The notes under the pieces: generated by a model | Told to the model about the DNA's origin: nothing | The model's input: only the letters and a program-made list of their open reading frames with translations | The model's database searches: none | Assembly: GCF_021246445.1 (NCBI RefSeq) | Contig: NZ_JAJQXW010000002.1 | Span: forward strand, 496,001 to 560,000 | Direction of reading: 5' to 3' | Length of the DNA stretch: 64,000 nucleotides | DNA from: Rhabdothermincola salaria | GTDB taxonomy: Bacteria; Actinomycetota; Acidimicrobiia; Acidimicrobiales; Acidimicrobilacustridaceae | Translations under genes and position numbers: made by a program | In this document: piece after piece, positions 3,196-50,931 of the stretch | Numbering within the stretch: position 1 is the first letter of the stretch | Layout: the number at the start of each line of letters is the position of its first letter

Positions 3196-5931
3196 ATGAG
3201 CAGCGACGATGAGCCGACCCACCACGGCGGAGGGGTTGCCCTGCTGGGCCGCCACGTCGTGACGGCGGAGCTGGCCGCGGGATGGCAGCGCACGCAGGCG
3301 GGCGGCGGGCAGGTCGTCGTCGTCGTCGCCGATGCGGCGATGGGCAAGTCCAGCCTCCTGCGCTGGCTCCGGGCTCACATCGGTCCCGATGGGGGGACCG
3401 TCGTGGAGGTGGTTGGGCGCGGCGGCGACCTCGCCCGTCCGCTGTCGTCGTTGGGTGAGCTCCTGGGGCGACTCCCGGACGCCGATCCCTTCGTCGCCCG
3501 CCTGGACGCGGTCGACGAGGTCGATCCGATCGTCGCCGGCCACGTCCTGCGCGAGGCGCTCGAGAGCGCGGCGCGCCTCCGACCGTTGGTTGTGCTGGTG
3601 GACGACGTCCACGACATGGACCCGGCCAGTCGCACGGCGGTGAACCTGGCCCTGAGGGGCGCCGTCGCCCCATGCCTGCTGGCCGTGGCGGCCGGCCGAC
3701 CCACCGACGCGGTGATGGCCTTTGCCGAGGGCTTCCGGACCCTCCGAGTGGAGGGCTTGGAGGATGCCGACGCCCGCCGGTTGCTGCTGGCATCGGCATC
3801 GACGCAGGTGGCCGATGCGGTCCTGGTGCGCCTCCTGGAGGTCTCGCAGGGGAACCCCTTGGCCTTGCGGTCCCTGCCCGACCACCTCGAGCCGGGACAC
3901 CTCGACGGCACGCAGCTCCTTCCCGAGCCGATCCCGGTGGCGGGCGACCTCCGCGATGCCTTCGAGCGACCGCTCGCCTCGCTCACCCCTCCGGCGCGTG
4001 AGCTGATCGAGCTGGCGGCCGTGAGCGCCGACGGGTCGATGGCGGTCATCGGGGCAGCCGTGCCCGGATCGATCGACGAGCTCGTGGCCGAGGTGGAGGC
4101 CGCCGGTCTCGGACACCTCGACGACGGTCGCCTCGTGTTCACCCACCCGCTGGTGCGTTCCGCGGCGGTGGTGGCGATGTCGCGGCGCCGTCGCCGAGAG
4201 CTGAACGGTCGCCTGGCGGAGGTCGCGCAGATCCCGGTCGAGACCCGTCTGCTGCACCGGGCGCACAGCATCCTCGGCCCGGACGAGGTGCTGGTCGACG
4301 CACTCGAGGACGCGGCGCGGCGCCAACGGGCTCGCGGAGGGGCCGAGGGCGCCGCCCGTCTCCTCGAGCGAGCCGTCGCCCTCTCGGGCGACGCCGACCG
4401 GTGCCAGAGGATGCGCATCGACTCCGCCGACGTGCTCGCCGTGTCCGGCAGCCACCTCGCGGCGCGCCGTCAGCTCGAGACCGTTCACGACGGGCCCGAG
4501 GACAGGGTCGGGGCGGCGCGGTGGCGGGCGATGGCCTCGATCCGGCTGGCCCGCATCGAGGCGTTGAACGGCGATCCGCTCGGCGCCTGGCAGCGGCTGC
4601 GGGAGTGCGTGGCGGTCGCCCCGGAGGCCGAGGTCGGGGTCGTCCACTCCACGATGGCCGTTCCGCTGGGGATGCTGGGCCTGGTCCGCGAGATCGAGGT
4701 CCAGGCCGCGCTCGCCATCGAGCACACCGAGCCCGGGACGGTGCCCCGCCACGTGGCGGACGTGGTGCACGCCCACGCCGTCGGAGCGACGGCGGAGGGT
4801 CGTGGTCGGCACCTCGTGGAGGCCCTCCCCGAGATCGACCTGCTGGACGCGCTCGACCACGATCCTCAGCTGGGCCTTCACCTCGGTCGCTCGTTCGGTC
4901 TGGCCGAGCGGATCGACGACGGCGTCGAGGCGCTGACGGCGCTGGCTGCCCGGGGCCGGGGTGAGCGGGCCCGGGCCTCGCTGGCCATGACCTACGGCAC
5001 CTTGGGCGAGCTGCACGTCCGGGGTTGCCGCTACGACGAGGCGATCGCCAACCTCGACGAGGCGTTGGTGCTGAGCCTGGCGACCGGGCAGCGGGCGTTC
5101 GCGCCGTTCTGGTTCGCGCTCAGGGCCCGGGTTCGCTCCGTGCGCGGGGACCACGACGGGGCCAAGGCCGACCTCGACGCCGGTCTGGGCATCGCCGACG
5201 AGCTCACCCTCCTGGGGGCGCGGTACTTCCTCCTGGGGGCGGCAGGGATGGACGCCCTCACCCGGGACGCCCCGGCCGAGGCGGTCGGGTTCCTCGAGGA
5301 GTGCCGCTTCTTCGAGAACGCTGGTGGGGTCCTGTCCCCCAACCTCGGACGGTGGCGCCCCGACCTGGTGAGCGCCCACCTGGCACGCGGTGACGACGAC
5401 CTGGCGTCGGAGGTGCTGGGGCCGCTGACCGACGCCGCAGCTGCGCCGGGGGCGAGCCGATGGACGCGTGGTTCGGCCGCATGGTCGGCCGGCTTGGTCG
5501 CTGCCCGCCGAGACCCGGTCGCGGGTGACCGGCTGCTGCAGGAGGCGGTCGAGATCCTCGACCCCGTGGCCGACTGCTTCGACCGCGCTCGTGCGCTGCT
5601 CGACCTGGCCCGGCTCCGGAGTCGTCGGGGTACGGCGGCCTCCGAGGAGGTGGCGGCGGAAGCCCGCTACGCCTTCCGTCGCCTCGGCTCGGTCCCCTGG
5701 GAGGACAAGGTCGCCGTCCATCGGCGAGCCGATGGTGCCGGCGGGATCGCGGAGCTGAGCCCGGCGGAGCTGCGGGTGCTGTCGGCGGTCAGCCGCGGGG
5801 CCACCAACCAGCAGATCGCGGTGCAGCTGGGGGTGAGCCCCAAGACGGTGGCCAACCACCTCTCGGCGATCTACCGGAAGCTGTCGGTGTCGTCGAGGAC
5901 CGAAGCCGCACACCGCTATCTCGACCGCTGA
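3196..5931 (+). CDS. LuxR-family ATPase/TPR transcriptional regulator (module copy 1)
   Basis: A 911-residue LAL/MalT-like regulator. Residues ~1-330 form a STAND-type ATPase with a P-loop (ADAAMGKSS, GKS at 50-52) and Walker B (LVVLVDDVHD, near 133-142). The middle ~500 residues are helical TPR-like repeats, for example around RASLAMTYGTLGEL. The C-terminal ~60 residues are a LuxR helix-turn-helix (LSPAELRVLSAVSRGATNQQ, then SPKTVANHLSAIYRKL). I chose ATG 3196 (MSSDDEP) over an upstream in-frame ATG at 3157 because the paralogue at 37703 begins at the matching point (MSDTAQ). The giant surface-protein gene follows 136 bp downstream, and the same pairing recurs at 37703-50931. That makes this the likely regulator of the giant gene; the regulation is inference. 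Confidence 0.85.
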   Translation: MSSDDEPTHHGGGVALLGRHVVTAELAAGWQRTQAGGGQVVVVVADAAMGKSSLLRWLRAHIGPDGGTVVEVVGRGGDLARPLSSLGELLGRLPDADPFVARLDAVDEVDPIVAGHVLREALESAARLRPLVVLVDDVHDMDPASRTAVNLALRGAVAPCLLAVAAGRPTDAVMAFAEGFRTLRVEGLEDADARRLLLASASTQVADAVLVRLLEVSQGNPLALRSLPDHLEPGHLDGTQLLPEPIPVAGDLRDAFERPLASLTPPARELIELAAVSADGSMAVIGAAVPGSIDELVAEVEAAGLGHLDDGRLVFTHPLVRSAAVVAMSRRRRRELNGRLAEVAQIPVETRLLHRAHSILGPDEVLVDALEDAARRQRARGGAEGAARLLERAVALSGDADRCQRMRIDSADVLAVSGSHLAARRQLETVHDGPEDRVGAARWRAMASIRLARIEALNGDPLGAWQRLRECVAVAPEAEVGVVHSTMAVPLGMLGLVREIEVQAALAIEHTEPGTVPRHVADVVHAHAVGATAEGRGRHLVEALPEIDLLDALDHDPQLGLHLGRSFGLAERIDDGVEALTALAARGRGERARASLAMTYGTLGELHVRGCRYDEAIANLDEALVLSLATGQRAFAPFWFALRARVRSVRGDHDGAKADLDAGLGIADELTLLGARYFLLGAAGMDALTRDAPAEAVGFLEECRFFENAGGVLSPNLGRWRPDLVSAHLARGDDDLASEVLGPLTDAAAAPGASRWTRGSAAWSAGLVAARRDPVAGDRLLQEAVEILDPVADCFDRARALLDLARLRSRRGTAASEEVAAEARYAFRRLGSVPWEDKVAVHRRADGAGGIAELSPAELRVLSAVSRGATNQQIAVQLGVSPKTVANHLSAIYRKLSVSSRTEAAHRYLDR

Positions 5932-6022: not shown

Positions 6023-6059
6023 ATGTCCTACTGACCGGGTCGAGCGCGCTCCGTAGCTT
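6023..6059 (+). promoter_or_regulatory. Promoter of giant gene 1 (conserved with copy 2), leaderless
   Basis: The -35 element CTGACC is at 6031-6036 and the -10 element TAGCTT at 6054-6059, with a 17-bp spacer. The spacer contains the perfect palindrome GAGCGCGCTC (6042-6051). ATGTCC lies at 6023-6028. Only 8 nt separate the -10 from GTG 6068, so the transcript should start at or next to the start codon. The block aligns with 40510-40546 upstream of giant gene 2, with the same ATGTCC-to--10 distance (31 bp), spacer and -10-to-GTG gap. Confidence 0.65.
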
Positions 6060-6067: not shown

Positions 6068-9000
6068 GTGGAGATCCTGGGCGGAGAAGGACTGATCGCA
6101 CGCGCACCGAGAGGGCGGGTGCGACTCTGGTGGGCGGTGGCCATGGCGGTGGTGGTGGCCGCGGCCGCGACCGGGGTGGCGGCGATCGTCGGCGCCGACG
6201 AACCGGTGTGGGACGCCGAGGACGTGCTGGTCGTCGCGGCGGTCGACGTCGACACCACGAGCGGGTCGCGAGCGGTGAGCGTGACGTGGCCGACCCCCGG
6301 GGGCACGATCGACGGCTTCGAGCTGCTCCGCGACGGTGCCGTCGTGGCCACGGCCGGCGGTGATGCGCGCGCGCTGGTCGATCCTGCCGCGCCCGAGGGC
6401 GGAGACATGGCCTACTCGGTGCGGGCCATGGCCGAGGGGAGGGAGCTGGCCGAGCTCCGAGGCCCGGAGGTCCGGATCACGGCGGACACCCTGGACTGCA
6501 CCATCACCTGGACCGGTGCCGCCGGCGACGGGTGGGGTGACGATCGGAACTGGGCTCCCGTGCTGGTCGATGCCAAGGGGGATCCGACCCTGCGCAGCCC
6601 CGGGCCCGCCGACGCGGCGTGCGTCGAGGCCAACCACAACCTGCCGATCAGCATCTCGGAGAAGGAGCCGGCCGTGGGTTCGCTCGCCGCTCCGGCTGGA
6701 TCGGCCGCGGCCGGGCCGTTGCGCATGGTCGACGGCGGCGGGCTCGAGGTGCTGGGGTCCTTCGACGCGCGGAACCTCCGGATCGATGGCGGGGACCTGG
6801 CGTTGCGGGCCGGCGGCGTGATCAGGGCGACCTCGACGGTGGACCTGTCGTTGCGGGGTGGCTCGCTCGACATCACCGGCACCCTGGCGGTGACCAACGG
6901 CCTGAACGGCGACGTCCGGGTGTACGACGGGGCCGTCGTCTCTCTGCACGGCGGTCGACTCCTCGTCGACGAGCTCACCATCGGGCCCCCTCGGATCGGC
7001 CTGCCCGCCGACGCCTCGCTCGTGGCCAGCGGGGGCCACGTGCTCGAGGCCTCGCGCACCTCCGTCAACGGTCGAGGCGATCTGTCCGTGGCCGGCGACG
7101 GCGGGACGCTACGCACTGGTTCGCTCGACGTGTGGCGCAACGACGGCGACGGGCGCACCTCCGTGGCCTGGGCGGTCGGTGGCGTGGGCGATGCGCTGAC
7201 CCCGGACTCGATCCGCTCGCGTGCCGACAACGAGCTCGTCCTCGGCGACCTGCTGGCGATCGACGCCGGTGACGACGTCCTCGAGGGCGTCGAGCTCGAC
7301 GTCGAGGGCCGTCTCGTGCTGGGCGAGAAGGTCGGGGCCATCGGCGACCTGACCCTCCAGGGCCCTGACGCCGAGCTCCTCACCGGCGGGTCGGCGGTAC
7401 CGAACGCCGGCGTCGAGCACGTGGACCGTCTGAACGTGTGGTCCACTTCGACGGTCTGGCCGGGCGACCTGTCCAGTGAAGCGATCAGCCTCGACGACGC
7501 CGAGCTGTCCGTGCAGGGCGCTCTCACCGACGGGCCGGCGGACGGGTTCGAGCTGGAGATGCGCAGATCCACGCTGCGGGTCGGCGACCCGCTGGTGATC
7601 CCGCCCGGGCGGGAGCTGGCGCTGTACTTCGGGCCCTCGGTCTTCGACGGCGACCTCGTGCTCGACGGTCGGCTCCCTCTCGACCAGGCGATCGACGGGA
7701 CCGAGTTCCCCTCGCTCACCGTCTCGGGTGATGTCCAGGTCCGCGACGGGGGCGAGATCACCCTGCTCCACGGCCAGGACGCACTCGAGGTCCAGGGCCG
7801 TCTCACCGTCGACCCGGATGGCGTGATCAGCGTGTGGCTGGACGAGGCACCCGATGGCCCCGTGCTGCTCGTGCCCGCCGGTGGGGCGGTGGCCGATCCT
7901 CGATCGATCGCGCTCACCGGTCCGGGCGCCGACAAGGCCGTCGTCGAGGTGCGCAACGATGGTCTCTGGGCCGTGCCCGGCGACCCCGGCGACCCCGGCG
8001 ACCCGGGCGACCCGGGTGATCCGGGTGATCCGGGTGATCCGGGTGATCCGGGTGATCCGGGTGATCCGGGTGATCCGGGTGATCCGGGTGAGAAGTGCAC
8101 CGAGGCCCTCCCCGGGGTCCTGGGCCTGTCGTTGACCGGGTGCTGGAGCGACCGCGGCGAGGGCGTCTACGCCGCCGGCGTGGCGGTGGCCCCGGACGGG
8201 GATCTGCCCGGCATCGGAGGGATCGTGTTCGAGCCCTCGGCGGGGGTCGAGCTCCTGCTCGACCTGTCCGAGCCCACCCAGCCTCGCCTCCGTTCGGTGC
8301 TGTCGGCCGACGAGTCCCAGCTCGGCGACACCTCGGTCACGGTCCCGCTGATCGGGCGCGACGGCGGCGACGTGGATGGTGCGTCGTTCCCCGCCTCCGA
8401 CGGCTCGTCCATCGATCTGGGGACCTTCGGCGTCGACTGGCGCCTGGACCAGCCCATCGACCTCGCCTCCGTCGCCGACCTGTTCGGGCTCCCGCTGCCG
8501 GACGGCATGACCCTCCAGGTCGTGAACGACGCCTGGCTCCTCGGCGCGCCGATCCCGTTGCCGGCGGTGGTCGGTGGCCAGACGGCGGACTTCGCGGCGG
8601 TGATCAGCGACCTGGGCATCGATCCGGCCGACCTCTCCCTCGAGGGGATCGAGGACGCCGTGTTCGCCGAGCTGGCCGCCCTCCAGGACCTGGCCCTCAC
8701 CTGGGCGGGCGACACCACCTGGCGCATCGTCTCGGCCATCGGCGATCCCTTCGCCATCGACGGTGAGCTCGACTACGACGGGGACCTGACGGCGGGCACC
8801 CTGGTCGTGTCCGGCCTGAGCGTGGCCGGCCTCGGTGATCCCGACGCCACCGTCACCCTCGAGTTCGACCGGTCCCAGGGCCGGTGGTCCGGCCAGTACG
8901 AGGTGGCCGACGGCCAGAGGGTGGACGTCGAGCTCGACACCGACGGCACCTCGCTGGTGGGCGGCACCGTGGCCCTCGCCGACGTCGCGTTCGGCCTGGC

Positions 9001-12000
9001 CACCGTCGAGGACTTCGAGATGACCTACCGGGCGGGCGTCTGGGCGTTGACGGGGACGGTGACCCACCTCGGGGGCACCGACAGCCTCATGGGGGCCCTG
9101 GTGACCGACGAGGGCGAGATCGTGAACCTGGAGGTGACGTTGACGGCCTCGTACGGTCCGTTCGGGCGCCTCGACCCGTTCTCGCTGAGCTACGCGGGTG
9201 AGGACGCCACCCTCCCGGACGGCAGCCCGGCGCCGGAGGGGGCCGAGGTCTACGCGGTGGCCGCCACGATGCACAGCGGCGGCGAGACGAGCTCGGTGGA
9301 CGGGTTCATGGCCTTCGACGGCGGCGTGGTGCTCGCCGACCTCTCGGTCGACGTGGCCCTGGGCGAGCTGGCGAGCCTCGACGGTCGCCTCTCGTACGAC
9401 CCGGCCAAGTCCCCGGACTGGGTGCTCGGGGGCACCGACGGCTCGGAGATGGCCACCCTGACCTGCGGCACGGGCCAGAGCGAGATCGGCGGCGCGCTGC
9501 GACTCGACGACGGGGCGCCGGTGGCCGGCCGGCTGCGGGCCACCGGCCTGTGCGTCGGCGTGGCTCAGCTCACCGAGATCGAGCTCCTGGTGGCACCCGA
9601 CGAGGGCGGCACCGCCTTCGACCTCACGGCCCGGGTGGCCCAGGCGACCGACGAGGACGCGGTGGTCACCGGCCGTCTCCACTTCGTGGAGGGACGCATC
9701 GAGGAAGGCGCGCTGGCCATCCCCGAGACGACCATCGAGGGCCTCGTCACCCTCCCCGAGACCTTCCTCGCCGTCACCCGCGACGGGGACGTCGAGCGCT
9801 GGGAAGCCACGATCCGGGGCGGGCCCCTGCGTGAGCTGGAGCTGGCCTTCGACGACGGCGCCCTGGTCGCCGGCGACCTGTGGCTCGCACCCGAGGACGA
9901 CGACGGACCCCCCGTGGTCTCGTGGGGCGACTGGCTCGCGGTGGAGTCGCTGCGGCTCACGTTCGACGGGGACGCCGGGACGTGGGCGGTCGAGGGGAAC
10001 CTGGCCGAGCCCGACGCCGAGATCACCGGCGAGCTGGTGGTCGACGACGGACGGGTGCTGAGCGGCGCCCTGCAGATCGACGGGGTCGAGATCGGCCCCC
10101 TCGCCCAGGTCGACCTCACCCTCACCGTCGACGCGGTGGTGGACCGCCGCCTGGCCCTCACCGGAGAGGTGCGCGGCAAGGCCTTCGAAGGCGATCGGGC
10201 CGTCAGCGGCGAGCTGGTGTTCACCTCCGGCGGGCAGCTCGAGTCCGGGTTCCTGAGCCTGTCGGCGCTGCCCATCGGTGAGCTGGCCACCGTGGAAGAC
10301 GTCGAGATCGCCTTCACCCTCGGCACCTCGTGGGCCCTGTCCGGGACGATCCTCGACGCCAACGGGAAGCTCCTCAACGACGTGGAGGGCCTGCTCGAGT
10401 ACGACGAGGGCTTCCTGACGGCCGCCGAGCTGGAGGTGGGCACCCTCTCGCTGGGCGTGGCCACCATCGACGACCTCGAGCTCGAGCTGACCCGCTCGCA
10501 GGACGACACCAACCGCACCGGTTCCTACGCCATCTCCGGGCTGGTCGACGTCCCCGCCGTCACCACCCCGGACAAGGGCCTCGAAGCCGGCCCGCCCGAG
10601 CCGGTGACCGGCTCGCTCACCATGGTCGACGGCCGCATCGAGTCCATGCAGCTCGGCGTGCCCATGCTCCAGCTCGGCGGCCTGGCCTACCTCGAGGACC
10701 TGGAGCTGGGCTACGACCACGACGAGGCCGACGACCTCGCAACCGTCTCCGGCGCCGCCGGGCTCGTCACCGCCGGCGACCTCCCACGCGTCGATGCCAG
10801 CCTCGGGCTCACCTTCCGTGACGGTCGCATCGTCGACGCCACGGTCGAGGCCGACGGCCTGCCCCTCGGTGGTCTCTTCAAGCTCTCCGACCTGAGCCTC
10901 ACCACCGATGCGGCGCTCACCGAGTGCCCGGGACTCGAGCGCGAGGTCCCCGACCCCGCTCGTCCCGAGCTGCGCCTCTGGGCGGTGAGCGCCGTCGTCG
11001 GCCAGGACGAGGTGCCGGTGACGGGCTGCCTGGGCATCGAGGACGGCACCCTCGTCGCCGCCCAGCTCGGCCTCGGTTCGGTGGAGCTCACCGAGCTCTT
11101 CCGCTTCGAGGACCTGCTCCTCACCTACGAGGGCTTGGAACAGGCGACGCTGCCCACCACGGAGGGTGGGGAGGCCGTGCTCGACCGCACCGTGCTCGCC
11201 CTCTCCGGCACCGTGATCACCGGCGAGAGCGACACCCGCACGTTCGCCGGCCAGGCGGCGGTCATGGACGGCGGTCTCGAGTCGCTCGAGCTCTCCATGT
11301 CGACGTTGCCGTTGGTCGGCGGCGTCGAGCTGCGCCAGCTCCGCATCGCCTACGACCAGAGCGGCCGCTGGGACGGCGAGAGCGACACCACCTTCGCCCT
11401 CAGCGGCCAGGCCGTGCACGGGGGCGGCACCACCGCGGTGTCGGGCAGCTTCAGCCTGGCGCCCGAAGGCCGTGGTGGCCGGGTGCAGGCCGCCTCGATC
11501 GACATCCACGAGCTGCCGGTCGGGCCCCTCCTGCTCAACCGCTTCGGACTCGTCTACACCGCGGACGAGGGTGGGTCGGGCTGGGCCATCGGCGGTTCGG
11601 TGACCGTTCCCGGCGGCGAGACCTTCGCCATCGACGGTGAGGCGGTCGTGGCCGAGGGCCGGCTGGTGTCGGCCACCATGACCATCCCGCGCCTGCCGAT
11701 CTACGACCAGCTCCAGCTCGCCGACATGGAGTTCGCCTACTCCTTCGACGACAAGACCGGTCTCACCAGCTGGTCGGGATCGGGGGAGGTGGAGGGCTTC
11801 GGCAGCGGGAAGGGGCCCGCGGCCAGCGTGGATCTGGTCATCGACGGGCAGGGCCGTCTGGTCGACGGCGAGATCCTCGCCGAGCGCGTCGAGTGGGACG
11901 GGTTGCTCACCCTCGAGCAGTTCCGGCTCATCACCGCCGACACCGACGACGGGCGGATCTGGGATGTGTCCGCCGCAGTGCTCTCGCCCCAGGGGGCATC

Positions 12001-40509: not shown

Positions 40510-40546
40510 ATGTCCCCATGACCGCGGCGGAGCGCGTCCGTACCAT
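40510..40546 (+). promoter_or_regulatory. Promoter of giant gene 2 (conserved with copy 1), leaderless
   Basis: The -35 element ATGACC is at 40518-40523, the spacer is 17 bp, and the -10 element TACCAT is at 40541-40546, 8 nt before GTG 40555. The spacer contains GGAGCGCGTCC (40529-40539), an imperfect dyad matching GAGCGCGCTC of copy 1. ATGTCC is at 40510-40515, 31 bp before the -10 as in copy 1. Confidence 0.65.
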
Positions 40547-40554: not shown

Positions 40555-43500
40555 GTGGAGCCCCTGGACCCAGCCCGTGACCTGACCGCGCGCGCCCGAG
40601 GGGCTCGAGCCCGCCTCTGGTGGGCGTTCGCGGCGCTGGCCGCAGTCGGCGTGCTGTCACTCGTGGCGGGCGTGGCGGGCGGTAGCCGTTCGACGTGGGG
40701 CGAGGGCGACGTGCCCACCGTCGCCGCCATCGAGGTCGGCACCGACGGGAGCCGGGCGGTGCGGGTGACGTGGCCGACGCCGTCGGCGACCCCCGAGACG
40801 ATCGAGCTCGTGCGCGTGGTCGGCATCACCACGACCGTGGTGGCCACCGGGCCGGGCGACGTCAGGGAGCTGGTGGATCCGTCGGTGCCCGAAGGCCAGC
40901 AGGTCGCCTACCAGGTGCGGGCGATCATGGAGGGCCAGCAGGCCGGACTGCTTCGTGGCCCCGTCGTCATCGTGGGTGCCGATGCCGTGCGCTGCACCAT
41001 CGCGTGGACGGGGGCCGCCGGCGACGCTTGGGGCGACGTCCGCAACTGGGCCCCCGTGCTCGTCGACGGACAGGGTGACCCGACCCCTCGCCTGCCGCAG
41101 GCCTCCGACGCCGCCTGCATCCACGCCCGCCACAACCTGCCGGTCACCGTCGCCGGATCCCAGCCCTCGGTGGGCTCCCTGGACGCGCCGGCGGGCATCA
41201 CCGAAGCGGTGCTGTCGATGGCGTCCGGTGATCTCGAGGTCCTCGGGGAGTTCGACGCGCAGCGGGTCCACATGGACGGTGGGACCCTCGCGTTGCGCTC
41301 GGGGGGACGCATCCTCGCCAGCGCGGGCGTCAACCTGGCCCTGCAGGGCGGCACCCTCGAGCTGGGCGGCACCCTGCAGGTGAGCAACGGCAACAACGGC
41401 GAGGTCCGCCTCGACGACGGCGCGGACGTGGCGGTCGTCGGTGGACGCCTGCTCGTCGACGACCTGCGCATCGGCCCGCCCACCGCCGGCCTTCCGGCCG
41501 ACGCCACGCTGCTCGCCGCGGGCGGTCACGTGCTCGAGGTCGACGATGCCCGGATCAACGGCCGGGTCGACCTGGTCGTGGGCGACGGAGGCGCCACGCT
41601 GGGCGCTCGCGACCTCGACGTCTACCGCAACGGCGGTGACGGTCGGGTGACGATCGGGTGGTCGGTGGCCGGGCGAGGCACCTCCGCCACGCCCGCCACG
41701 ATCCGGGTGCGCGACACCAGCGAGCTGAACCTGACCGACATGGCCGCGCTGGGTGGTGGCGACGACCACCTCGAGGACGTGGCCCTCGAGGTCGAGGGGC
41801 CCCTGCGGTTCGATGAGCCGGTCGGATCGATCGACCGTCTCACCCTCACCGGTGCTGCCGCGCAGGTCTCCTCGGGTGGAGCTCCGACGCCCTACGCCGG
41901 TCTGGCCGAGGTGGGGCACCTCACCGCGTTCTCCGCGACCGCGGCCTGGCCGGGCGACCTCGCCGTCGACCGCTTGGAGGTGTACGGCTCGGAGCTGTTG
42001 GTCGCCGGCACGTTGGGCGACCGACCGGGCGGTGGTTTCGCCCTCACGACGTTCGAATCCGTCCTCGGCTCGTCCACGCCGCTGGTGCTCCCGGTCGACG
42101 CCGCGCTCGACATGGGCTTCGGCGAGTCGGTGTTCGAGGGAGACCTCGTGGTCGAGGGTGTGCTCCCCCTCGATCGCCTGGTGGACTTCACCCAGCCGCC
42201 GTTCCTGCGGGTCCGGGGCGACGTGACCGTGCGCCCGGGCGGTGAGGTGGCGATCGTCGAGGGCAAGGGGGGCCTCGAAGTCCTCGGCGATCTCTCGTTG
42301 GACGACGGGTCGACCCTGCGCGCCACGCTCGAGACCGCGCTCGCCGCCGACGAGGAGCGTCGTCTGGTCGCGGCCGGGTCGGTCGAAGGCGACGTTCGTT
42401 CGGTCGTGCTGCAGGGCCCCGGGGCCGACGTCGCCGACGCCGAGCTTCGCGGCGATGGCATCTGGGTGGTGGGTTCCACCGGTGATCCGGGCGGTCCGGG
42501 CGGTCCGGGCGGTCCGGGTGATCCGGGTGATCCGGGTGATCCGGGCGGTCCGGGTGATCCGGGTGATCCGGGTGATCCGGGTGATCCGGAGTGCACCCGT
42601 GATCTGCCGTCGGTGGTGGGGCTCGGATTGCAGGGCTGCTGGGCCGACAGGGGTGACGGCACCTACGTCGCCGGCATCGTGGCCGCCCCCGACGGGGCCC
42701 TTCCGGGGATCGGGGGCATCGTGATCGAGCCCTCGGCGTCGGCGGCGCTGCTCCTCGACCTGCGCGACCCCGCGGCACCCACCCTGCGTTCGGTGCTGCG
42801 GGCCGACGAGGCCCAGCTGGGCGAAGCGTCGGTCACCGTGCCCATCTTGGGGGCCGGGAACGACGGTGCCGCCGTCGAGGGGACGTCCGGCCCTGCATCG
42901 GGACCCGCGTCCATCGACCTCGGCACCTTCGGCATCGACTGGGACCTCGCCGAGATCATCGACCTCGACGCGGTGGGCGCCCTGCTGGGTGTCCCTGTTC
43001 CCGACGGGGTGAAGCTCTGGGTGGAGCAGGGGGCCTGGCGCCTCGCGGCCTCGCTCGGTCTGCCCGACGTCCTCGGTGGCGGCCGCGCCGACCTGGTGGC
43101 CCCGATCGCTCCGGACGGCCTCGACCCCGCCGACCTCGGTGTCGAGGGGATCGCCGAGGCGGTCCTCGCCGAGCTCGGCGGGCTCCGCGACCTCGCCCTC
43201 ACCTGGGTGGGCGACACCACCTGGGCCATCGTGTCGGCGGTGGGCGACCCGTTCGCCATCGACGGCCAGGTCACCTACGACGGCGGTCTCTCCGCCGGCA
43301 CCCTCGTCGTGTCCGGCCTCACGGTGGCCGGCATGGGCGACCCCGACGCCGAGGTCACCCTCACCTTCGACCGCACCGAGGGAACGTGGTCGGGCCTCTA
43401 CGTGGTCCCTTCGGGCGAGCGCCTGTCCGTGGAGCTCACCACCGACGGCACCTCGTTGGTGGCCGGCAGCGTCGAGCTCGCCGGCCTCGAGCTCGGCGTC

Positions 43501-46500
43501 GCCACCGTCGAGGACCTGATGCTGTCGTGGGCTGGCTCCAGCTGGGCGGTGAGCGGCTCGGTCACCACCCTCGACGGTGGCGGCACCCTCAGCGGCACGC
43601 TCGACGTCGACGACGGCGAGGTGCGCACCGTCGAGCTCACCCTCGTGGCCTCCCTCGGGCCGCTGGGGCGAGTCGAACCGTTCGCTTTCAGCTACGTGGC
43701 CGACGCCGAGGTGCTCCCCGACGGCACCGAGCTGGCCGAGGGCTCCGACCTCTACCTCCTCGACGGCACCGTGCACAGCGGTGGTGAGACCAGCACGCTG
43801 ACCGGCTACCTCGTGATGCAGGGCGGGCAGACCGCGCGGGCCGAGCTCGACGCCGACCTCGCCCTGGGCGAGCTCGCCGGCCTCGACGGCCTGCTCTCCT
43901 TCGATCCGGCCGAGAGCCCCGACTGGCTCCTCACCGGTCGTGACGGCGCGCGCAGCGCCACTCTCACCTGTGGGGGCGGGCAGAGCGAGATCTTCGGATC
44001 GCTGCGCCTGTCCGCCGGCGGTCCCACCGCCGGTCGGCTCGAAGCCGACGGCCTCTGCTTCGGGTTCGCCCAGCTCACCTCCGTGGTGCTCGACATCGCC
44101 CCCGAGGAAGACGGGACCGCCTTCGACCTCACGGCCCGACTGGCCCAGCAGAGCGACGACGACGCCGAGGTGACCGGCCGCCTCCACCTCGTCGAGGGGC
44201 GCATCGAGGAGGCGGTCCTGGTGACCCCCGAGGCCACCCTCGAGGGCCTGGTCACCGTTCCGGCCGCCCAGCTGACCCTCACCCGGGAAGGCGACGTCGA
44301 GCGCTGGGAGGCCCGCATCGACGCCGGCTCCGGCGCGCTGCGCCACCTCGAGCTGGCCTGGCGTGACGGCAGCCTCGTGGGGGCCGAGGTGCACCTCGGC
44401 CCCGACGGCGAGGACGGGTCCCCCGTGGCCTCCTGGGGTTGGCTCAGCGTGGCCGAGCTCCACCTCGTGTACGACGGGGTGGCCGAGGAGTGGCTCGTCG
44501 ACGGCCGCTTGGCCACCCCCGACGTGGCCGTGACCGGGGAGCTCGATCTGCTCGACGGCCGCCTCGTCTCCGGTGAGCTGCACGTGGACGGGGCCCAGCT
44601 CGGCCCCATCGCCACCATGGACCTCACCATGACCGTGGACGCCACCATCGACCGCCGGCTGGCTCTGAGCGGCTCGCTGGTCGGGCCCGCCTTCGACGGG
44701 GCCCGCGCCCTCGACGGCGAGCTGGTGTTCACCCCGACCGGGGCGCTCGACTCCGGTCGCCTCGGCATCCCGCTGCTCCCGGTCGGCGAGCTGGCCACCA
44801 TCACCGACCTCGAGATGGCGTTCGAGGTCGGTGGGCTGTGGTCCCTCGCCGGTTCCATCGTCGGCGGCGACGGCAGGCCGCTGAACACGGTGGCCGGCAG
44901 CCTGGAGGTCGACGACGGCGAAGTGGTCGCGGCCCACCTCGCCCTCGGTCGCCTCTCACTCGGCCCCGCGTCGATCGAGGACCTCGAGCTGTCCCTCCTG
45001 CGCCGAACCGGCGACGACAACCGCACCGGCCAGTGGGCGGTCTCGGGCGTCGTCGACGCCCCGGTCACCATCGAACCGGACAGGGACCCCACGGCCGATC
45101 CCGAACCGGTGGCCGGCCGGCTCACGCTGCGCGATGGGCGGGTGACCGGCTTCGAGATGCAGGTGCCGTTCCTCGAGATCGGTGGGCTGGCCTACCTGCG
45201 CGACCTGGAGCTCGGCTACTCCTACGACGCCGATGACGACCTGGCCACGGTGTCCGGCGGCGCCGAGCTGGCCACCGCCGACGACCTCGGGCCGGTCGAT
45301 GCCTCGTTCTCGGTGTCGTTGCGCGACGGGCGCATCGTCGACGCGTCGGTGGCCGCCGACGGGCTGCCGCTCGGAGGCCTGTTCACGCTCACCGACCTGC
45401 TGCTCACCACCGACGCCGTGGACCCGCTCACCACGTGCCCGGGCCTCGAGGGCCCGGTGCCGGACCCGGACCGGCCCGACCTGCGCATCTGGGCCCTGAG
45501 CGCCACGGTCGGCCAGGACCAGGTGCCGGTGTCGGGGTGCGTCGGCATCGACGACGGCGTCCTCGTCGCCGCCGACATCCAACTCGGCTCGGTGCAGCTC
45601 ACCGATCTCTTCCGCTTCGAGGACGTCGGCCTCACCTACGACTCCCTCGAGCAGGTCCCCCTCGAGGGGACCGACCGCGTCCTCACCCGCACGACGCTCG
45701 ACGTGTCCGCCACCGTGATCGCCGGCACCAACGACCCCCTCGTGGTGGGTGGTCAGGCCACCGTCATGGACGGAGGGCTCGAGAGCTTCGGCGTGGGTAT
45801 CGGGACCCTCCCGCTCGTCGGCGGCGTCGAGCTGCGCCAGCTCCGGGTGGACTACGCCCAGCCCGGTCGTTGGGACGGCGAGAGCGACACCACCTTCGCC
45901 CTCAGCGGCGCGGCCCTCCACGAGGGCGGCACCACCGCGGTGGAGGGCTCGTTCCGCTTGGCCGCCGCCGGCCTGGGCGGGCGGGTGCTCGAGGCGTCGG
46001 TCGAGATCCTCGACCTCCCCGTCGGCCCCATGACCCTGGACCGCTTCGCCGTCGAGTACCTCGACGACGACGGTGCCACCTCGTGGGGCATCGGTGGCGA
46101 GGTCACCGTGGCCGACGGCGAGACCTACGGCATCGACGGCGCCGCCGCCGTCGCCGACGGCCGGCTCCAGTCCGCCTCGCTCACCATCCCGCGCCTGCCG
46201 ATCTACGACCAGCTGCTGTTGCAGGACCTCTCGTTCGCCTACGACCTCGACCCCGACAGCGGGTCGGCCCAGTGGTCCGGCACCGGCAGCGTGGCCGGAA
46301 CCCGAGGCGGAGGCGGCGGCGCCCCCACCGCTTCGGTCGACCTGCTCATCGATGACCAAGGGCGCCTCGTCGACGGCGAGATCACCGCCGGCAACGTGGC
46401 GTGGGGTGGGCTGTTCGCGCTCGAGGACTTCACCCTCACGACCACCGCCGGTCCTCCGGGCGACCGGTTCTGGACCGCAGCGGCGTCGGTGTCGGTGAGC

Positions 46501-49500
46501 GGCGGCGAGCCCGGCAGCCTCTCCGGACTGCTCCGTCTCGAGGGCGGCCAGGTCGCCGAAGGAGGCCTCGCCATCTCCGGCGTGCAGGTGGCAGGCCTCG
46601 TGACCATCGACGAGCTCGAGCTCGCCGTGGACATCCGCGACGAACAGCTCGGCTGGACCGGCGCCGCCCAGGTGACGAGCGGGGGCACCACCATCTCGGG
46701 GCAGGTGGCCATGAGCTGGGAGGAGGGCACCCTGGTGGCGGCCGACCTCGGGTTGGGCACGGTCCCGCTCAGCCAGGGACTCGCCCTCGAGAGCTTCCAG
46801 CTGACCTACCCGGCCACGGTCTCGGGCCTCGACGGCTGGGCGGCCGGTGGCTCGGTCCGTCACGAGGGCGGGCTCTCCGCGCTGTCGGGCTCGCTGGCCT
46901 TCGTCGACGGCCGCCCCACCCGCGGGTCGCTCACCGCCGAGGGCGTGCAGTTCGGTCCGTTGGCCCTCGACCAGTTCGCCCTCGCCGTCACCGAGGACGA
47001 GCTCGAATCCTGTGGCGCCACCGTCCCGGCCTCGGCCAGCGGCGCGGTCACCTACGCCCTGTCCGCCACGGTCGGCCACGGCGACGGCACCACCGCGTCG
47101 CTGGGTGGGCACTTCACCATCGACGGCGGCCGCCTCACCGGCGGCTCGGCCTGCGGCAGTGGCATCCGCATCGCCGAGATCGCCGTGCTCGACGACGCCC
47201 ACTTCGCCTACACGGGCCCCTCGCCCGGCGATCCGGTCGAGCGGTGGAGTGGCGGGGCCAGCCTGCGCAACACCGACGGGGCCCTCGCCTCGGCGTCGGT
47301 GGCCTTCGGCCTCGACGAGGGACGCCTGGACTCGTTCGCCCTCGAAGCCGGCGGTCTTCGCCTCGGCGACATCCTCGACCTGCGCGACCTCGAGATCACC
47401 TACGACGGCTCTCGCCAGGCCAGCGAGTGGTTCGTCGCCGCCGACGTGGCCCGCCCGGGCGACGACGGCACCCAGCTGACGGGCGCCCTCATCGTCGACC
47501 GGGGTGTGGCCGTGGCCGGGGGGTTCCAGGTGGCCAACCTCCCGCTGGGCAACCTCACCACCCTCGACGACCTCTCCTTCGAGTACGTGGGACGCCGGGC
47601 GCCCCAGTCCCTCCCGCAGGTGGGTGAGGGCACCGGGTTCGCCCTGACCGGCACGCCCGAGTGCTCCTCCATCCCCAGCAGTGCCATCAACGTCCCCACC
47701 GGACCGCCCACCACGGAGGGCTCCGAGGCCTACTTCGCGGCGTCGGCCAGCGTCACCCACAAGGGCGACACCTACGCCGCTCGCGGCTCGTTGGGTCTCG
47801 ACGACGGCCGCCTCTCGGCGTTCGACCTCACGATCGCCTGCCTGCCCGTCGGCGACATGGTGCGCCTCGAGGACGTCCGCCTCGCCCTCACCCAGGAGGG
47901 ATCCTTCCGACTCGGTGGTCGCCTCGGGCTGGAGGACGAGCTGGTCACCTTCTACGGGTCCATGACCTTCGACGACGGCCGGCTGGTGGGCGGGGGCCTG
48001 AAGCTGGGCGGCGTGCCCTTCGGTCCCGTCACCCTCGAGCTGCTCGAGTTCTCCCTCGGCCAGGACCTCGACGGCACCTCGACCTGGGGTGCGGGCCTGG
48101 CGGTGAGCGGCCCCGACGGCAACACCATCGGGGGCAGCGGATCGGTCACCGTCGACGACGGGCGCATCGTGGCCGGATCGGTGACGGTGTCGCAGCTGCC
48201 CGTGTTCGGGCTGGTCACCATCTCCGATCTCCAACTGGCCTTCGCCGACACCGCCGAGGGGCTCGAGCTCAGCGGCTCGGGCGGGGTCAAGACCATCGGT
48301 GGGCAGACCTCCAGCATGGATGTGGAGCTCGAGTTCGAACGGGGGCGTCTCGTCGGGGGCTCGCTGGCGGCGGACAACCTGCTGTTCTTCGACGCACTGC
48401 CGATCAAGGCCTTCTCGATCGGCTTCAGCCCCGACGGTGGCTGGGAGGGCTCGGTGAGCACCGCCCTCGACGACCTCCCGAGCGGTCCCTCGATCGTGGT
48501 CGCCATCGAGACCGATGGCCAGCGCCTCACCGGCGGGGCCCTCGGCTTCGACGCCGATGGGGACGGCAACCCGGACATGCCCACCGGCAACAACGTCCCG
48601 GCCTCGGGCAACGGCACCCTGGCGGTCTTTCCCCTCAAGGCCTTCTACATCAGCTACTGCCCCGACGGCTCCACCCGGGAGGGCTGCGACGGCTTCGGCG
48701 ACGTCTGGGAGGGCGCCCTCGCCATCGAGCTGCCCACCCCCAACCCCGTCGGCATCGCCGGGTCGGTCACCATCCGCGACAACCGCCTGGTCGGGGCGTC
48801 GCTGTCGGCGACGGGGCTCGGCATCCCGCTCTTCACCGGGGTCACCCTCGACAGCGTGGGGGCCGGGTTCTCCAAGGACCCGAACCTGATCATGACCGGC
48901 TCGATGGGTGCGAGGGTGGGGCCGCCGGCGGTGCCCTTCATGCAGCTCGACGGCTCGCTGCAGTTTTCCGAGCAGCCCGACTGGGACCCGTCGACCCCCT
49001 ACGACGAGTACCAGGCCCAGTGGCTCCGCTTCCTGTTGCGGGCCAACGCCACCTTCTTCGGTCTGCCCGTCACCGCTGGCGGCTACATCGACATCGACAC
49101 CCGGGGCTACGCCGGGTTCGGTGGCCGGGTGAGCGCCAAGCCGATCAAGCAGATCGAGATCCTCGGCATGGTCCGGGCCGCGGTGTTCAACGCCAACAAC
49201 ATGGACCTCACCAACCCGGACACCGGTCAGCCCCTCACCGGGGTCGGCTTCCAGGCCGAGGGCACGGTGGAGGTCACCGCCTTCGGCCTCGGGCCCGCCG
49301 GCGGCACCGTGTTGATCAACAACGTCGGCCTCGGCGCCTGTGCCTACCTCGGCCAGAACCACCGGATCGGCGGCGGCTTCTACTGGGACCGGCCCGTCCG
49401 GTCGTTGCGCTTCCGCTGCGACATGGGTCGCTACGAGATCGTCGGCGTGTTCAACGACGACGTCTTCGATCCCGCAGCCGGGGTGTCGCTCGCGTCCACC

Positions 49501-50931
49501 GCCGACCTGCCGGAGGGACGGTCGGGGGTCGCCTCCGGGCAGGTCACCCACCGCTTCGAGGTCGGGCCCGGTGAACCCCTCATCGGCATCCAGATCTTCA
49601 CCGACGACGGCGTGCCCGACTACGCCGTCATCGCCCCGGACGGCACCCGCTACGAGAACCCGACGACCGGCGACTTCGACCGCGAGGGCCACCTGCTGGT
49701 CCGCGACGACGAAGGTCAGCACGTCCTCATCGAGGACCCCCAGGAAGGCATCTGGCTCCTCGAGCGGCGCGACGGCTCGCCGATGGCCGCCGAGGTGGTG
49801 ACCTCCGCGGTGCTCCCGGACGTCGAGGTCGACACCCAGCTCACCCAGGAGGACGACCGGGTGCGGGTGGGATACAGCGTCGGTCGCATCGACGGCCAAG
49901 AGGTGCTGTTCATCGAGCGCAGCTCCGACCCCGACGACGAGTACCAGGCGGTCGTCGGGGGCATCAAGGCCGAGGGTGGCGCTCTGGGCCCGTCCAGCAC
50001 CCAGCCGGGGGAGCCTCGGGGCATGGGCATCGCCTCGGTGGACGGCTACGAGGAGGGGACCATCGAGTTCACGCCCGGGGGTTCCCCTGCGGCCTCCGAG
50101 CGGGAGCTGGTGGCGGTGGTGATGCAGGACGGCATCCCCCGCGAGACGATCGTGGTGGACACCTTCACCGCCCCCGCCGCCGATCCGGCCTCGGCCCCCA
50201 CCGGCCTCCAGGTGACCGAGGTCGAGGGCGGGGCGCTCGTGCGCTGGTCGCCGCCGGCCGACGACGGCGGTCGCCAGATCGTCGGCTACCGCATCCAGTC
50301 CGACCTGGGCCTCAGCGTGGGCGCCGGCCCCGACGGGACCGAGGTGGTCCTGCCCATCCCGGCCATGGCCCCGGGCAAGGAGGTGCCCGTGGTGGTCCAG
50401 GCCGTCACCGGCGCCGGGCACGGTGCCCCCGTGGTGGGGTCGTTCGTGGCCACCCAGACCACCGACCTCCAGTACATCCCGCTGGGCGCCACCGGAGGTC
50501 CCGGCGACCCGACCGATCCGACCGATCCCACCGATCCGACCGATCCGACCGATCCGACCGATCCGACCGATCCGACCGATCCGACCGATCCGACCGATCC
50601 GACCGATCCGACCGATCCGGGTGGTCCAGCCGACCCGACGGATCCGGGGGGCCCCACGGAGCCGGGCCCGACCGATCCGGGCGACCCGGGCGATCCGGGC
50701 GTCCGGGACGACCCCGGTCCGACCGACCCGGCCCAGCCCGTGGCGCCGGGCCCCGACGTCGGATCGACCGGAGCCCAGGACGACACCGGTGAGGGCCGCG
50801 AACAAGCCGGAACGCTTGCCTACACCGGTTCGTCGGACCCCACGCCGCTCATCCTGGTCGGGGTGCTGCTGTTGTCGCTCGGGGCCGGCGTGGCCATGGT
50901 CGGCCTCCGCCGCGGCCGCACCGAGGAGTGA
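40555..50931 (+). CDS. Giant secreted repeat protein with LAYTG wall-sorting signal (module copy 2)
   Basis: A 3,458-residue paralogue of the giant at 6068, one residue different in length and colinear throughout. Signal/anchor segment (~20-44, after ARARLWW), Fn3-like domain, TIAWTGAAGDAWGDVRNW opening the beta-helix-like region, twelve Gly-Asp/Gly-Pro triplets, the same array of degenerate beta-rich repeats, and the best-conserved core (CPDGSTREGCDGFGDVWEG, then PNPVGIAGS, MGARVGPPAVPFMQLDG, PDWDPSTPYDEYQAQW). Then Fn3, twelve Asp-Pro-Thr repeats, a Pro/Gly-rich stretch, LAYTG (3421-3425), a membrane helix and RRGRTEE. LAxTG is the class E sortase signal of actinobacteria, so covalent wall attachment is likely. 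Cysteine positions match copy 1. Role unknown; adhesin, surface layer or predation/defence fibre are all open. Confidence 0.84.
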   Translation: MEPLDPARDLTARARGARARLWWAFAALAAVGVLSLVAGVAGGSRSTWGEGDVPTVAAIEVGTDGSRAVRVTWPTPSATPETIELVRVVGITTTVVATGPGDVRELVDPSVPEGQQVAYQVRAIMEGQQAGLLRGPVVIVGADAVRCTIAWTGAAGDAWGDVRNWAPVLVDGQGDPTPRLPQASDAACIHARHNLPVTVAGSQPSVGSLDAPAGITEAVLSMASGDLEVLGEFDAQRVHMDGGTLALRSGGRILASAGVNLALQGGTLELGGTLQVSNGNNGEVRLDDGADVAVVGGRLLVDDLRIGPPTAGLPADATLLAAGGHVLEVDDARINGRVDLVVGDGGATLGARDLDVYRNGGDGRVTIGWSVAGRGTSATPATIRVRDTSELNLTDMAALGGGDDHLEDVALEVEGPLRFDEPVGSIDRLTLTGAAAQVSSGGAPTPYAGLAEVGHLTAFSATAAWPGDLAVDRLEVYGSELLVAGTLGDRPGGGFALTTFESVLGSSTPLVLPVDAALDMGFGESVFEGDLVVEGVLPLDRLVDFTQPPFLRVRGDVTVRPGGEVAIVEGKGGLEVLGDLSLDDGSTLRATLETALAADEERRLVAAGSVEGDVRSVVLQGPGADVADAELRGDGIWVVGSTGDPGGPGGPGGPGDPGDPGDPGGPGDPGDPGDPGDPECTRDLPSVVGLGLQGCWADRGDGTYVAGIVAAPDGALPGIGGIVIEPSASAALLLDLRDPAAPTLRSVLRADEAQLGEASVTVPILGAGNDGAAVEGTSGPASGPASIDLGTFGIDWDLAEIIDLDAVGALLGVPVPDGVKLWVEQGAWRLAASLGLPDVLGGGRADLVAPIAPDGLDPADLGVEGIAEAVLAELGGLRDLALTWVGDTTWAIVSAVGDPFAIDGQVTYDGGLSAGTLVVSGLTVAGMGDPDAEVTLTFDRTEGTWSGLYVVPSGERLSVELTTDGTSLVAGSVELAGLELGVATVEDLMLSWAGSSWAVSGSVTTLDGGGTLSGTLDVDDGEVRTVELTLVASLGPLGRVEPFAFSYVADAEVLPDGTELAEGSDLYLLDGTVHSGGETSTLTGYLVMQGGQTARAELDADLALGELAGLDGLLSFDPAESPDWLLTGRDGARSATLTCGGGQSEIFGSLRLSAGGPTAGRLEADGLCFGFAQLTSVVLDIAPEEDGTAFDLTARLAQQSDDDAEVTGRLHLVEGRIEEAVLVTPEATLEGLVTVPAAQLTLTREGDVERWEARIDAGSGALRHLELAWRDGSLVGAEVHLGPDGEDGSPVASWGWLSVAELHLVYDGVAEEWLVDGRLATPDVAVTGELDLLDGRLVSGELHVDGAQLGPIATMDLTMTVDATIDRRLALSGSLVGPAFDGARALDGELVFTPTGALDSGRLGIPLLPVGELATITDLEMAFEVGGLWSLAGSIVGGDGRPLNTVAGSLEVDDGEVVAAHLALGRLSLGPASIEDLELSLLRRTGDDNRTGQWAVSGVVDAPVTIEPDRDPTADPEPVAGRLTLRDGRVTGFEMQVPFLEIGGLAYLRDLELGYSYDADDDLATVSGGAELATADDLGPVDASFSVSLRDGRIVDASVAADGLPLGGLFTLTDLLLTTDAVDPLTTCPGLEGPVPDPDRPDLRIWALSATVGQDQVPVSGCVGIDDGVLVAADIQLGSVQLTDLFRFEDVGLTYDSLEQVPLEGTDRVLTRTTLDVSATVIAGTNDPLVVGGQATVMDGGLESFGVGIGTLPLVGGVELRQLRVDYAQPGRWDGESDTTFALSGAALHEGGTTAVEGSFRLAAAGLGGRVLEASVEILDLPVGPMTLDRFAVEYLDDDGATSWGIGGEVTVADGETYGIDGAAAVADGRLQSASLTIPRLPIYDQLLLQDLSFAYDLDPDSGSAQWSGTGSVAGTRGGGGGAPTASVDLLIDDQGRLVDGEITAGNVAWGGLFALEDFTLTTTAGPPGDRFWTAAASVSVSGGEPGSLSGLLRLEGGQVAEGGLAISGVQVAGLVTIDELELAVDIRDEQLGWTGAAQVTSGGTTISGQVAMSWEEGTLVAADLGLGTVPLSQGLALESFQLTYPATVSGLDGWAAGGSVRHEGGLSALSGSLAFVDGRPTRGSLTAEGVQFGPLALDQFALAVTEDELESCGATVPASASGAVTYALSATVGHGDGTTASLGGHFTIDGGRLTGGSACGSGIRIAEIAVLDDAHFAYTGPSPGDPVERWSGGASLRNTDGALASASVAFGLDEGRLDSFALEAGGLRLGDILDLRDLEITYDGSRQASEWFVAADVARPGDDGTQLTGALIVDRGVAVAGGFQVANLPLGNLTTLDDLSFEYVGRRAPQSLPQVGEGTGFALTGTPECSSIPSSAINVPTGPPTTEGSEAYFAASASVTHKGDTYAARGSLGLDDGRLSAFDLTIACLPVGDMVRLEDVRLALTQEGSFRLGGRLGLEDELVTFYGSMTFDDGRLVGGGLKLGGVPFGPVTLELLEFSLGQDLDGTSTWGAGLAVSGPDGNTIGGSGSVTVDDGRIVAGSVTVSQLPVFGLVTISDLQLAFADTAEGLELSGSGGVKTIGGQTSSMDVELEFERGRLVGGSLAADNLLFFDALPIKAFSIGFSPDGGWEGSVSTALDDLPSGPSIVVAIETDGQRLTGGALGFDADGDGNPDMPTGNNVPASGNGTLAVFPLKAFYISYCPDGSTREGCDGFGDVWEGALAIELPTPNPVGIAGSVTIRDNRLVGASLSATGLGIPLFTGVTLDSVGAGFSKDPNLIMTGSMGARVGPPAVPFMQLDGSLQFSEQPDWDPSTPYDEYQAQWLRFLLRANATFFGLPVTAGGYIDIDTRGYAGFGGRVSAKPIKQIEILGMVRAAVFNANNMDLTNPDTGQPLTGVGFQAEGTVEVTAFGLGPAGGTVLINNVGLGACAYLGQNHRIGGGFYWDRPVRSLRFRCDMGRYEIVGVFNDDVFDPAAGVSLASTADLPEGRSGVASGQVTHRFEVGPGEPLIGIQIFTDDGVPDYAVIAPDGTRYENPTTGDFDREGHLLVRDDEGQHVLIEDPQEGIWLLERRDGSPMAAEVVTSAVLPDVEVDTQLTQEDDRVRVGYSVGRIDGQEVLFIERSSDPDDEYQAVVGGIKAEGGALGPSSTQPGEPRGMGIASVDGYEEGTIEFTPGGSPAASERELVAVVMQDGIPRETIVVDTFTAPAADPASAPTGLQVTEVEGGALVRWSPPADDGGRQIVGYRIQSDLGLSVGAGPDGTEVVLPIPAMAPGKEVPVVVQAVTGAGHGAPVVGSFVATQTTDLQYIPLGATGGPGDPTDPTDPTDPTDPTDPTDPTDPTDPTDPTDPTDPTDPGGPADPTDPGGPTEPGPTDPGDPGDPGVRDDPGPTDPAQPVAPGPDVGSTGAQDDTGEGREQAGTLAYTGSSDPTPLILVGVLLLSLGAGVAMVGLRRGRTEE
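42481..42588 (+). repeat. 9-bp tandem repeat encoding 12 Gly-(Asp/Gly)-Pro triplets
   Basis: Twelve 9-bp units: eight GGTGATCCG-type (Gly-Asp-Pro) and four GGCGGTCCG-type (Gly-Gly-Pro), interspersed. Same place and same number of triplets as in giant gene 1, but a different internal order. Confidence 0.85.
50506..50613 (+). repeat. 9-bp tandem repeat encoding 12 Asp-Pro-Thr triplets (stalk)
   Basis: Twelve nearly uniform GATCCGACC units before the LAYTG signal; giant gene 1 has sixteen. Followed by a looser Asp-Pro-Gly/Thr segment to about 50700. Confidence 0.85.

Follow-up and report, generated by a model that had tools for sequence, protein, structure and literature searches.

LAL regulators are large proteins with an N-terminal ATPase domain and a C-terminal LuxR-type helix-turn-helix (HTH) (PMC3282765), and LAXTG is the sorting signal of class E sortases (PMC5148588). 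Among giant surface proteins, the nearest described case of clustered genes that we found is Giant1-5 of Apilactobacillus kunkeei, in the main text on which the word "regulator" does not occur (PMC12863079), and the nearest class that we found is the fibrillar adhesins (PMC8286594). Here we describe a 64,000-nucleotide stretch of the genome of Rhabdothermincola salaria (Acidimicrobiia; contig NZ_JAJQXW010000002.1, positions 496,001 to 560,000; hereafter the window), in which a gene for a LAL-type regulator is twice followed by a gene for a giant, repetitive, putative surface protein. The module is real, is duplicated and is of a recognisable kind; its repeat family received no name in our scans, and its history of growth is plausible. 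As to function, each copy may be a regulated surface-fibre (regulator-effector) module, a reading to which we assign, from sequence, a probability of roughly 0.6.

The first-pass annotation of the window knew of no described system of this form. Literature searches returned nothing on a giant protein of the Acidimicrobiia and, judged by title and the start of the abstract, no pair of a LAL/LuxR regulator and a giant surface protein among the matches listed; giant surface proteins and LAL regulators are each of a known kind.

Duplication of the regulator and giant genes

The two copies (3196-16447 and 37703-50931) have identical gene order and strand, regulator then giant, and open reading frames and alignments confirmed that the same gene pair occurs twice, with products of 911/914 and 3,459/3,458 residues, as first described. 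The regulators are 60.7% identical over 905 amino acids by BLASTP (60.5% by global alignment) and the giants 56.1% identical over 3445 amino acids (58.6% by global alignment). Comparison of window positions 1-25000 with 25001-64000 by BLASTN revealed one 12.9-kb block of 68.6% DNA identity (3511-16177 versus 38045-50670); because the three remaining matches fall in the (DPT)n repeat of this block, neither flank is duplicated at BLASTN sensitivity, as the first-pass annotation had also held, and the ~21 kb of unrelated genes that it placed between the copies measure 21.3 kb and are mostly ordinary by Pfam. The module is a segmental duplication with both copies intact, and rough Nei-Gojobori ratios of nonsynonymous to synonymous substitution (dN/dS) for the two genes (0.33/0.92 and 0.36/0.67) are below one, so that both genes look to be under purifying selection. 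Across the genome as a whole (3.9 Mb, 7 contigs), searches in which the giant query was a 2607-residue piece detected two giants and two regulators of this type at full length, along with three extra regulator matches to the HTH only. No plasmid match was found for a 678-residue piece.

Giants and regulators in related genomes

The only other full-length giant found belongs to a genome of another genus of the same family (G284). In the order survey, which like those of the phylum and class below scored two first-look candidates per genome and may miss weaker or extra copies, 35 of 298 genomes matched the giant, and only the window genome and G284 matched it beyond the Fn3-like end; a second, overlapping draw, scored in the same way, contained two genomes of 397 with a giant at E<=1e-8. 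Within the family the giant is present in two of 37 genomes and is missing from G322, a congener of the window genome. Genomes that matched the Fn3-like end only (query from residue 2397; 33 of the 35 in the order, 12 of 14 in the family) were not counted as having a giant. Two genomes of another genus of the family contain open frames of 9,536 and 9,230 amino acids with scattered Fn3-like-end matches (G299:C158, L048, and G308:C150, L049). A contig-database scan with the giant alignment returned JAFIEP010000063.1, identical base for base to contig C130 of G284, as its sole match, and a scan with a single-protein query returned none; such scans with giants rely on few peptide patterns.

A close full-length regulator (at least 51% identity) occurs in two of the 37 family genomes, exactly the two with a giant, and both genes are absent from the other 35 (Fisher p 0.0015, a value that ignores the relatedness of the genomes and counts as one of the two the window genome, present by construction). 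G315 has a regulator homologue 28-33% identical, with the giant not adjacent, and other regulator matches in the family were shorter or weaker. Because the paralogues of the window are closer to each other (61% for regulators, 59% for giants) than to those of G284 (54% and 49% identical to copy 1), both genes were probably duplicated after the G284 split. The comparison suggests that the pairing of regulator and giant is older than its doubling.

The G284 giant lies on C130 with genes for SLH/beta-propeller proteins upstream, and the regulator orthologue (about 50% identical) lies on contig C99 with genes of this type downstream (the one scanned has Pfam matches to SLH and PD40). C99 breaks off within an SLH+propeller gene, and C130 starts within one of the same kind; the top four matches to such a gene, query included, are all on these two contigs; some further SLH matches of G284 are near contig ends, in the SLH part only. 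We infer that C99 and C130 adjoin, in the order regulator, SLH/propeller array, giant. If so, the array consists of four SLH + beta-propeller genes, two of them cut by contig ends (L053:12444-15593, L037:15977-19571).

The regulators

By their Pfam matches, the regulators of the window (P0001 and P0003) and the 983-residue orthologue of G284 (P0006) have the LAL/MalT arrangement, with AAA_16 at the N-terminus of all three and GerE at the C-terminus (E-values of 2.7e-16, 9.5e-15 and 4.6e-16); TPR matches were weak, below curated cut-offs. A motif scan found the canonical Walker A sequence in P0003 and P0006. The HTH is 62-74% identical among the three, versus 50-60% for the remainder, and P0003 and P0006, two of the three, have the same recognition helix (SPKTVANQLSRVYRKL). 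The frames of both window regulators are open upstream of the starts given in Table 1, from 3157 (3157-5931, 924 amino acids) and from 37571 (37571-40447, 958 amino acids).

A promoter-like element upstream of the giants

An element of the form ATGTCC-N3-WGACC-N15-CGTA is found in the upstream regions of all three giants with identical internal spacing, amid surroundings that align poorly, and its distance to the GTG start codon is identical in the two window copies. Two 9-bp blocks of the element agree at 6-8 of nine positions in pairwise comparison, versus 1-7, mostly 2-4, for other blocks. When both the window genome and G284 were scanned with two mismatches allowed, nine matches were obtained: three exact (by construction), all preceding giants, one with one mismatch and five with two. 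The one-mismatch copy is located in G284 272 bp past the regulator stop codon, before the SLH/propeller array (C99:12231-12263); this near-copy beside the regulator and the scarcity of other close copies are not by construction. The reversed control pattern gave 1 and 3 matches. In the window alone, with three mismatches allowed, no sites other than the two exact ones were found, against a chance expectation of 2.0. TGACC/AGACC and TANNNT, 17 bp apart, could be the -35 and -10 sequences (assigned by eye), with the start codon near the expected transcript start. The most economical history has regulator, element and giant adjacent at first and the array of G284 inserted later; the array may have arrived with a copy of the giant's promoter element.

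Between the regulator and the element copy of G284 (L053:12020-12160) there are two near copies of a stretch of ~47 bp, ~84 bp apart, with a palindromic core (GGGTACCC) recognised by eye.

The giants and their repeat unit

Both giants of the window have the same order of parts: an N-terminal hydrophobic segment, a GDP linker, repeats, then the C-terminal module and the (DPT)n stretch and, at the C-terminus, another hydrophobic segment followed by Arg residues. With an iterated profile, each of the three giants yields 27 units that score above 15 bits; at a domain E-value below 0.01 over the whole protein, 31 units are counted in giant 1 and 32 in giant 2, a few of them in the N-terminal region, and 29 unit anchors set by eye have a mean spacing of about 65 amino acids. 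The only Pfam match of the window giants is that of giant 1 to collagen, at its (GDP)n linker, with nothing in giant 2, and the repeat unit matches no Pfam family in any of the three giants. NCBIfam had no match for giant 2 and no family for the repeat unit in the G284 giant. By eye, the N-terminal region of the giants reads as beta-helix-like.

AlphaFold2 modelled four units (18-row alignment of repeats from the window giants and G284) as an all-beta structure of 16 strands with no long helix (predicted local distance difference test score, pLDDT, 90.5; predicted template modelling score, pTM, 0.80) and eight units (9 rows) with pLDDT 83.3 and pTM 0.73; the repeat alignments consist of non-overlapping groups A4 and A7, in which some rows are one unit out of register. 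From its run of long strands the modelled repeat reads as an antiparallel beta-meander. In VIA comparisons the four-unit model was matched to porin barrels, with Z up to 10, and to single-layer sheets of OspA, at Z about 9, near the range of common arrangements; among the best rows for the models there are many barrels of the outer membrane, besides OspA and apoB. As regards grooves of the AsmA/TamB type, the VIA rows listed contain the outer-membrane protein TamA but neither AsmA nor TamB as a solved structure, which excludes nothing.

Small relatives of the giants

A profile of giant residues 2283-3151 matched proteins in eight further genomes among 396 of the phylum. A second profile, made from seven of these eight proteins (the G639 fragment being omitted), aligned with the giants at an hhalign probability of 99.9 (E 1.6e-32, 505 columns), and its unit region aligned to seven places in the G284 giant. 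In the class (395 genomes) it recovered the window genome, G205 and G226 (frames of 812 and 808 amino acids, both of the window genome's family) and G704 (844 amino acids), whereas matches in G833, G085 and G941 covered no more than the Fn3-like end, with which the profile closes. At an equal threshold the repeat unit occurs 0-2 times in the nine small relatives tested versus 30-32 times in the giants. Neither Pfam (four small proteins) nor NCBIfam (three) gave anything above a curated cut-off; sub-threshold matches were to BNR_2, GBD_Hemicentin, choice_anch_O and PDIAV_lipo. Amplification within a family of small proteins, secreted or anchored in the membrane and without a name in these scans, is thus the probable origin of the giant; the direction from small to giant is suggested by the wider distribution of the short form.

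Surface anchors

A C-terminal surface anchor was recognised in giant 2 (LAYTG followed by a membrane segment) and in the G284 giant (SLH, Pfam E 2.7e-12, with a sub-threshold fn3 match). Giant 2 has the LAXTG motif, hydrophobic segment and basic tail, and the window genome encodes one sortase, whose best NCBIfam match is to class E (143.7 bits, under the curated cut-off of 160 bits). A search of the window genome gave no match to an SLH domain; G284 is rich in SLH proteins, with 131 matches to an SLH-propeller query. Thus the anchor differs between two genomes with different surface systems.

A proposed regulated surface fibre and its alternatives

In the model that we favour, the LAL/STAND-type ATPase would sense a signal, perhaps via its large middle region, and in its ATP-bound form would occupy the part of the element described above that lies immediately before the -35 region in the giant's promoter, and so turn the giant on. 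The N-terminal segment would export the giant and the C-terminus would fix it to the cell wall, through the class-E-like sortase here and through SLH domains in G284. The giant would then project as a long fibre with its N-terminal region outermost, for adhesion or aggregation. Beta-strands are spaced 0.48 nm apart, and a single-layer beta-meander would extend for roughly 50 nm (29 units x 4 strands x 0.48 nm) if the units form one extended sheet. The two-gene unit would have been block-duplicated after the split of the G284 lineage, with both copies retained. On a wider and more tentative view, which seems to us possible though less likely than not, the window giants belong to an unnamed actinobacterial superfamily built on one beta-meander unit, which was inflated about thirtyfold in one lineage of the Acidimicrobiia. 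On at least two occasions the superfamily would have become coupled to STAND-type ATPases (LuxR-type here, BTAD-type in G450), and the outcome would be a giant surface fibre under the control of a signal, with a dedicated promoter and exchangeable wall anchors.

Several observations weigh against the regulated fibre. The Walker A motif of P0001 is degenerate (AxxxxGKS, with the first Gly changed to Ala), giant 1 bears LVVTG instead of LAXTG, and known adhesive domains are absent from the Pfam matches of all three giants. The element pattern was derived from these same sequences, and a sigma-70 scan finds a promoter-like site at neither element of the window. The neighbour of the G284 giant is an SLH/beta-propeller array gene, not the regulator, and no exact end overlap was found between C99 and C130, so that the linkage of regulator and giant spans an assembly gap. 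The neighbourhoods of 11 small relatives were examined in all six frames with profiles and phmmer and were scanned for Walker motifs, an approach that divergent regulator types could escape; apart from G639, whose contig of 3.2 kb is uninformative, eight of the ten loci have no large ATPase regulator in the stretch covered (about 5-10 kb per side, G704 on one side). G677 has only the contig-cut tail of a LuxR-type protein, with one gene intervening, and G419 a small response-regulator-like gene 4.8 kb downstream. In G450 a STAND-type AAA_16-TPR-BTAD/Trans_reg_C regulator of 1091 amino acids lies 253 bp upstream on the same strand (L077:12296-15571, minus strand), with a different type of DNA-binding domain. 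Coupling to a large ATPase is therefore seen for the giants (two adjacent, one probable) and occasionally in the wider family.

The working pair of the first-pass annotation is favoured by co-duplication, co-occurrence, the shared element and the G450 regulator, and is opposed by the G284 neighbour, the assembly gap and the eight small relatives. Of the evidence that the annotation had called for, co-occurrence in related genomes turned out favourably within the family (two genomes of 37 with both genes, 35 with neither) but not among the small relatives, most of which lack an adjacent regulator; and homologues of the giant without an adjacent regulator, which it had named as telling against a pair, are the rule in the wider family, because eight of the ten informative small relatives show no such regulator, but not among the three giants.

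These observations bear on the strongest alternative, which we regard as unlikely, namely that two neighbouring genes were duplicated together by chance and that the targets of the regulator are other genes. Pleiotropic LAL regulators do occur (PMC3282765), other genes separate regulator and giant in G284, and most small relatives have no regulator neighbour; yet the presence or absence of regulator and giant match across the 37 family genomes, the element is specific to the giants with a near-copy directly after the G284 regulator, and a regulator of a second type adjoins a distant relative (G450). It is improbable, in turn, that the two copies are alternative surface coats switched by different signals, with each regulator serving its own copy only. 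In favour of this, both copies are diverged and intact, their dN/dS is below one, and each has a regulator and an element to itself, but the element cores and recognition helices are nearly alike, and therefore cross-talk rather than insulation is predicted. Very improbable is a third reading, in which the modelled beta-meander is not a passive stalk but an amphipathic sheet for the binding or conduction of lipids or other hydrophobic ligands in the manner of apoB or groove-type lipid carriers: strands of the four-unit model have one face that is more apolar (as strongly so in 30 of 2000 shuffles) and apoB-100 ranks third in the VIA comparison of the eight-unit model (Z 7.3, 342 aligned residues, root-mean-square deviation 18.5), but this Z and deviation lie in the stated noise range of the tool, near that of common arrangements, OspA single-layer sheets score equally (Z 7.5), and neither model has a PDB match in Foldseek at E<=0.001.

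Features of the window

The features of the two copies are listed in Table 1. The spacer between them encodes an amidohydrolase, a CoA-transferase, a glutaredoxin, a WS/DGAT protein, an AMP-binding fusion protein, two ABC transporters, a haem-oxygenase-like protein, CAP, a cupredoxin and an ABC1 kinase, plus two predicted genes without a Pfam match. The fusion protein (22790-25396, 868 amino acids, AMP-binding + PP-binding + Acyl_transf_3) is encoded next to the WS/DGAT gene, and a predicted protein of 604 amino acids with zero Pfam matches is encoded at 29151-30965 (minus strand). Genes for an ECF sigma factor and an RskA-type anti-sigma factor (55219-56642, minus strand) lie 4.3 kb past giant 2 on the opposite strand.

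Table 1. Features of the two copies of the regulator-giant module, in window positions
Feature	Position	Strand	Description
Regulator 1 (P0001)	3196..5931	+	LAL-type, AAA_16 ATPase + LuxR (GerE) HTH, 911 amino acids from ATG 3196
Promoter-like element, copy 1	6023..6055	+	ATGTCC-N3-WGACC-N15-CGTA; giant start codon 45 nt after first base
Giant 1	6068..16447	+	3459 amino acids, GTG start
Giant 1, N-terminal hydrophobic (putative membrane/export) segment	6125..6199	+	Hydropathy
Giant 1, collagen-like (GDP)n linker	7979..8098	+	Pfam Collagen E 5.5e-8; 9-bp tandem repeat
Giant 1, predicted tandem beta-meander units	8669..14368	+	27 at >=15 bits; AlphaFold2 models of 4 and 8 units
Giant 1, C-terminal module common to small relatives, including Fn3-like end	14123..15949	+	hhalign
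Giant 1, (DPT)n stretch	16001..16149	+	9-bp repeats
Giant 1, C-terminal LVVTG + membrane segment + Arg residues (degenerate sorting signal)	16325..16447	+	Hydropathy, sequence
Regulator 2 (P0003)	37703..40447	+	LAL-type, 914 amino acids from GTG 37703, canonical Walker A GGAAIGKS
Promoter-like element, copy 2	40510..40542	+	Spacing to start codon as in copy 1
Giant 2	40555..50931	+	3458 amino acids, GTG start
Giant 2, GDP/GGP-type collagen-like linker	42481..42589	+	9-bp repeat; no Pfam match
Giant 2, predicted tandem beta-meander units	43174..48879	+	27 at >=15 bits
Giant 2, (DPT)n stretch	50505..50619	+	9-bp repeats
Giant 2, LAYTG class E sorting signal + membrane segment + RRGR tail	50815..50931	+	LAXTG per PMC5148588

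Comparison with known systems

The module offers a regulator-promoter-effector hypothesis for a giant surface protein, in which the exactly spaced element makes the regulatory claim directly testable, together with evidence that a giant may have arisen through amplification of one unit of a small secreted protein. The regulators resemble LAL regulators of the MalT type in their large size, N-terminal ATPase and C-terminal LuxR HTH, from which regulator 1 departs by its altered Walker A motif; the cases named in PMC3282765 are regulators of antibiotics or maltose, whereas here the regulator is paired with a giant surface protein.

The anchor of giant 2 is like those of class E sortase substrates (LAYTG, hydrophobic segment and Arg tail, with a class-E-like sortase in the genome), unlike those of giant 1 (LVVTG) and the G284 giant (SLH), the latter being similar to SLH-anchored surface proteins, of which the window genome search gave no match.

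Fibrillar adhesins (PMC8286594) and Giant1-5 of A. kunkeei (PMC12863079) are likewise very long, repetitive and exported, with a C-terminal anchor, and A. kunkeei, like the window genome, has several giants. The window giants differ from both in a repeat without a Pfam family, in the absence of an adhesive domain from their Pfam matches and in the adjacent large regulator. As for a stalk domain, their repeat units match no Pfam family, and giant 1 has its collagen match; by comparison with the fibrillar adhesin-like proteins (PMC8286594), the giants of the window, though without a known adhesive domain, may nonetheless function alike.

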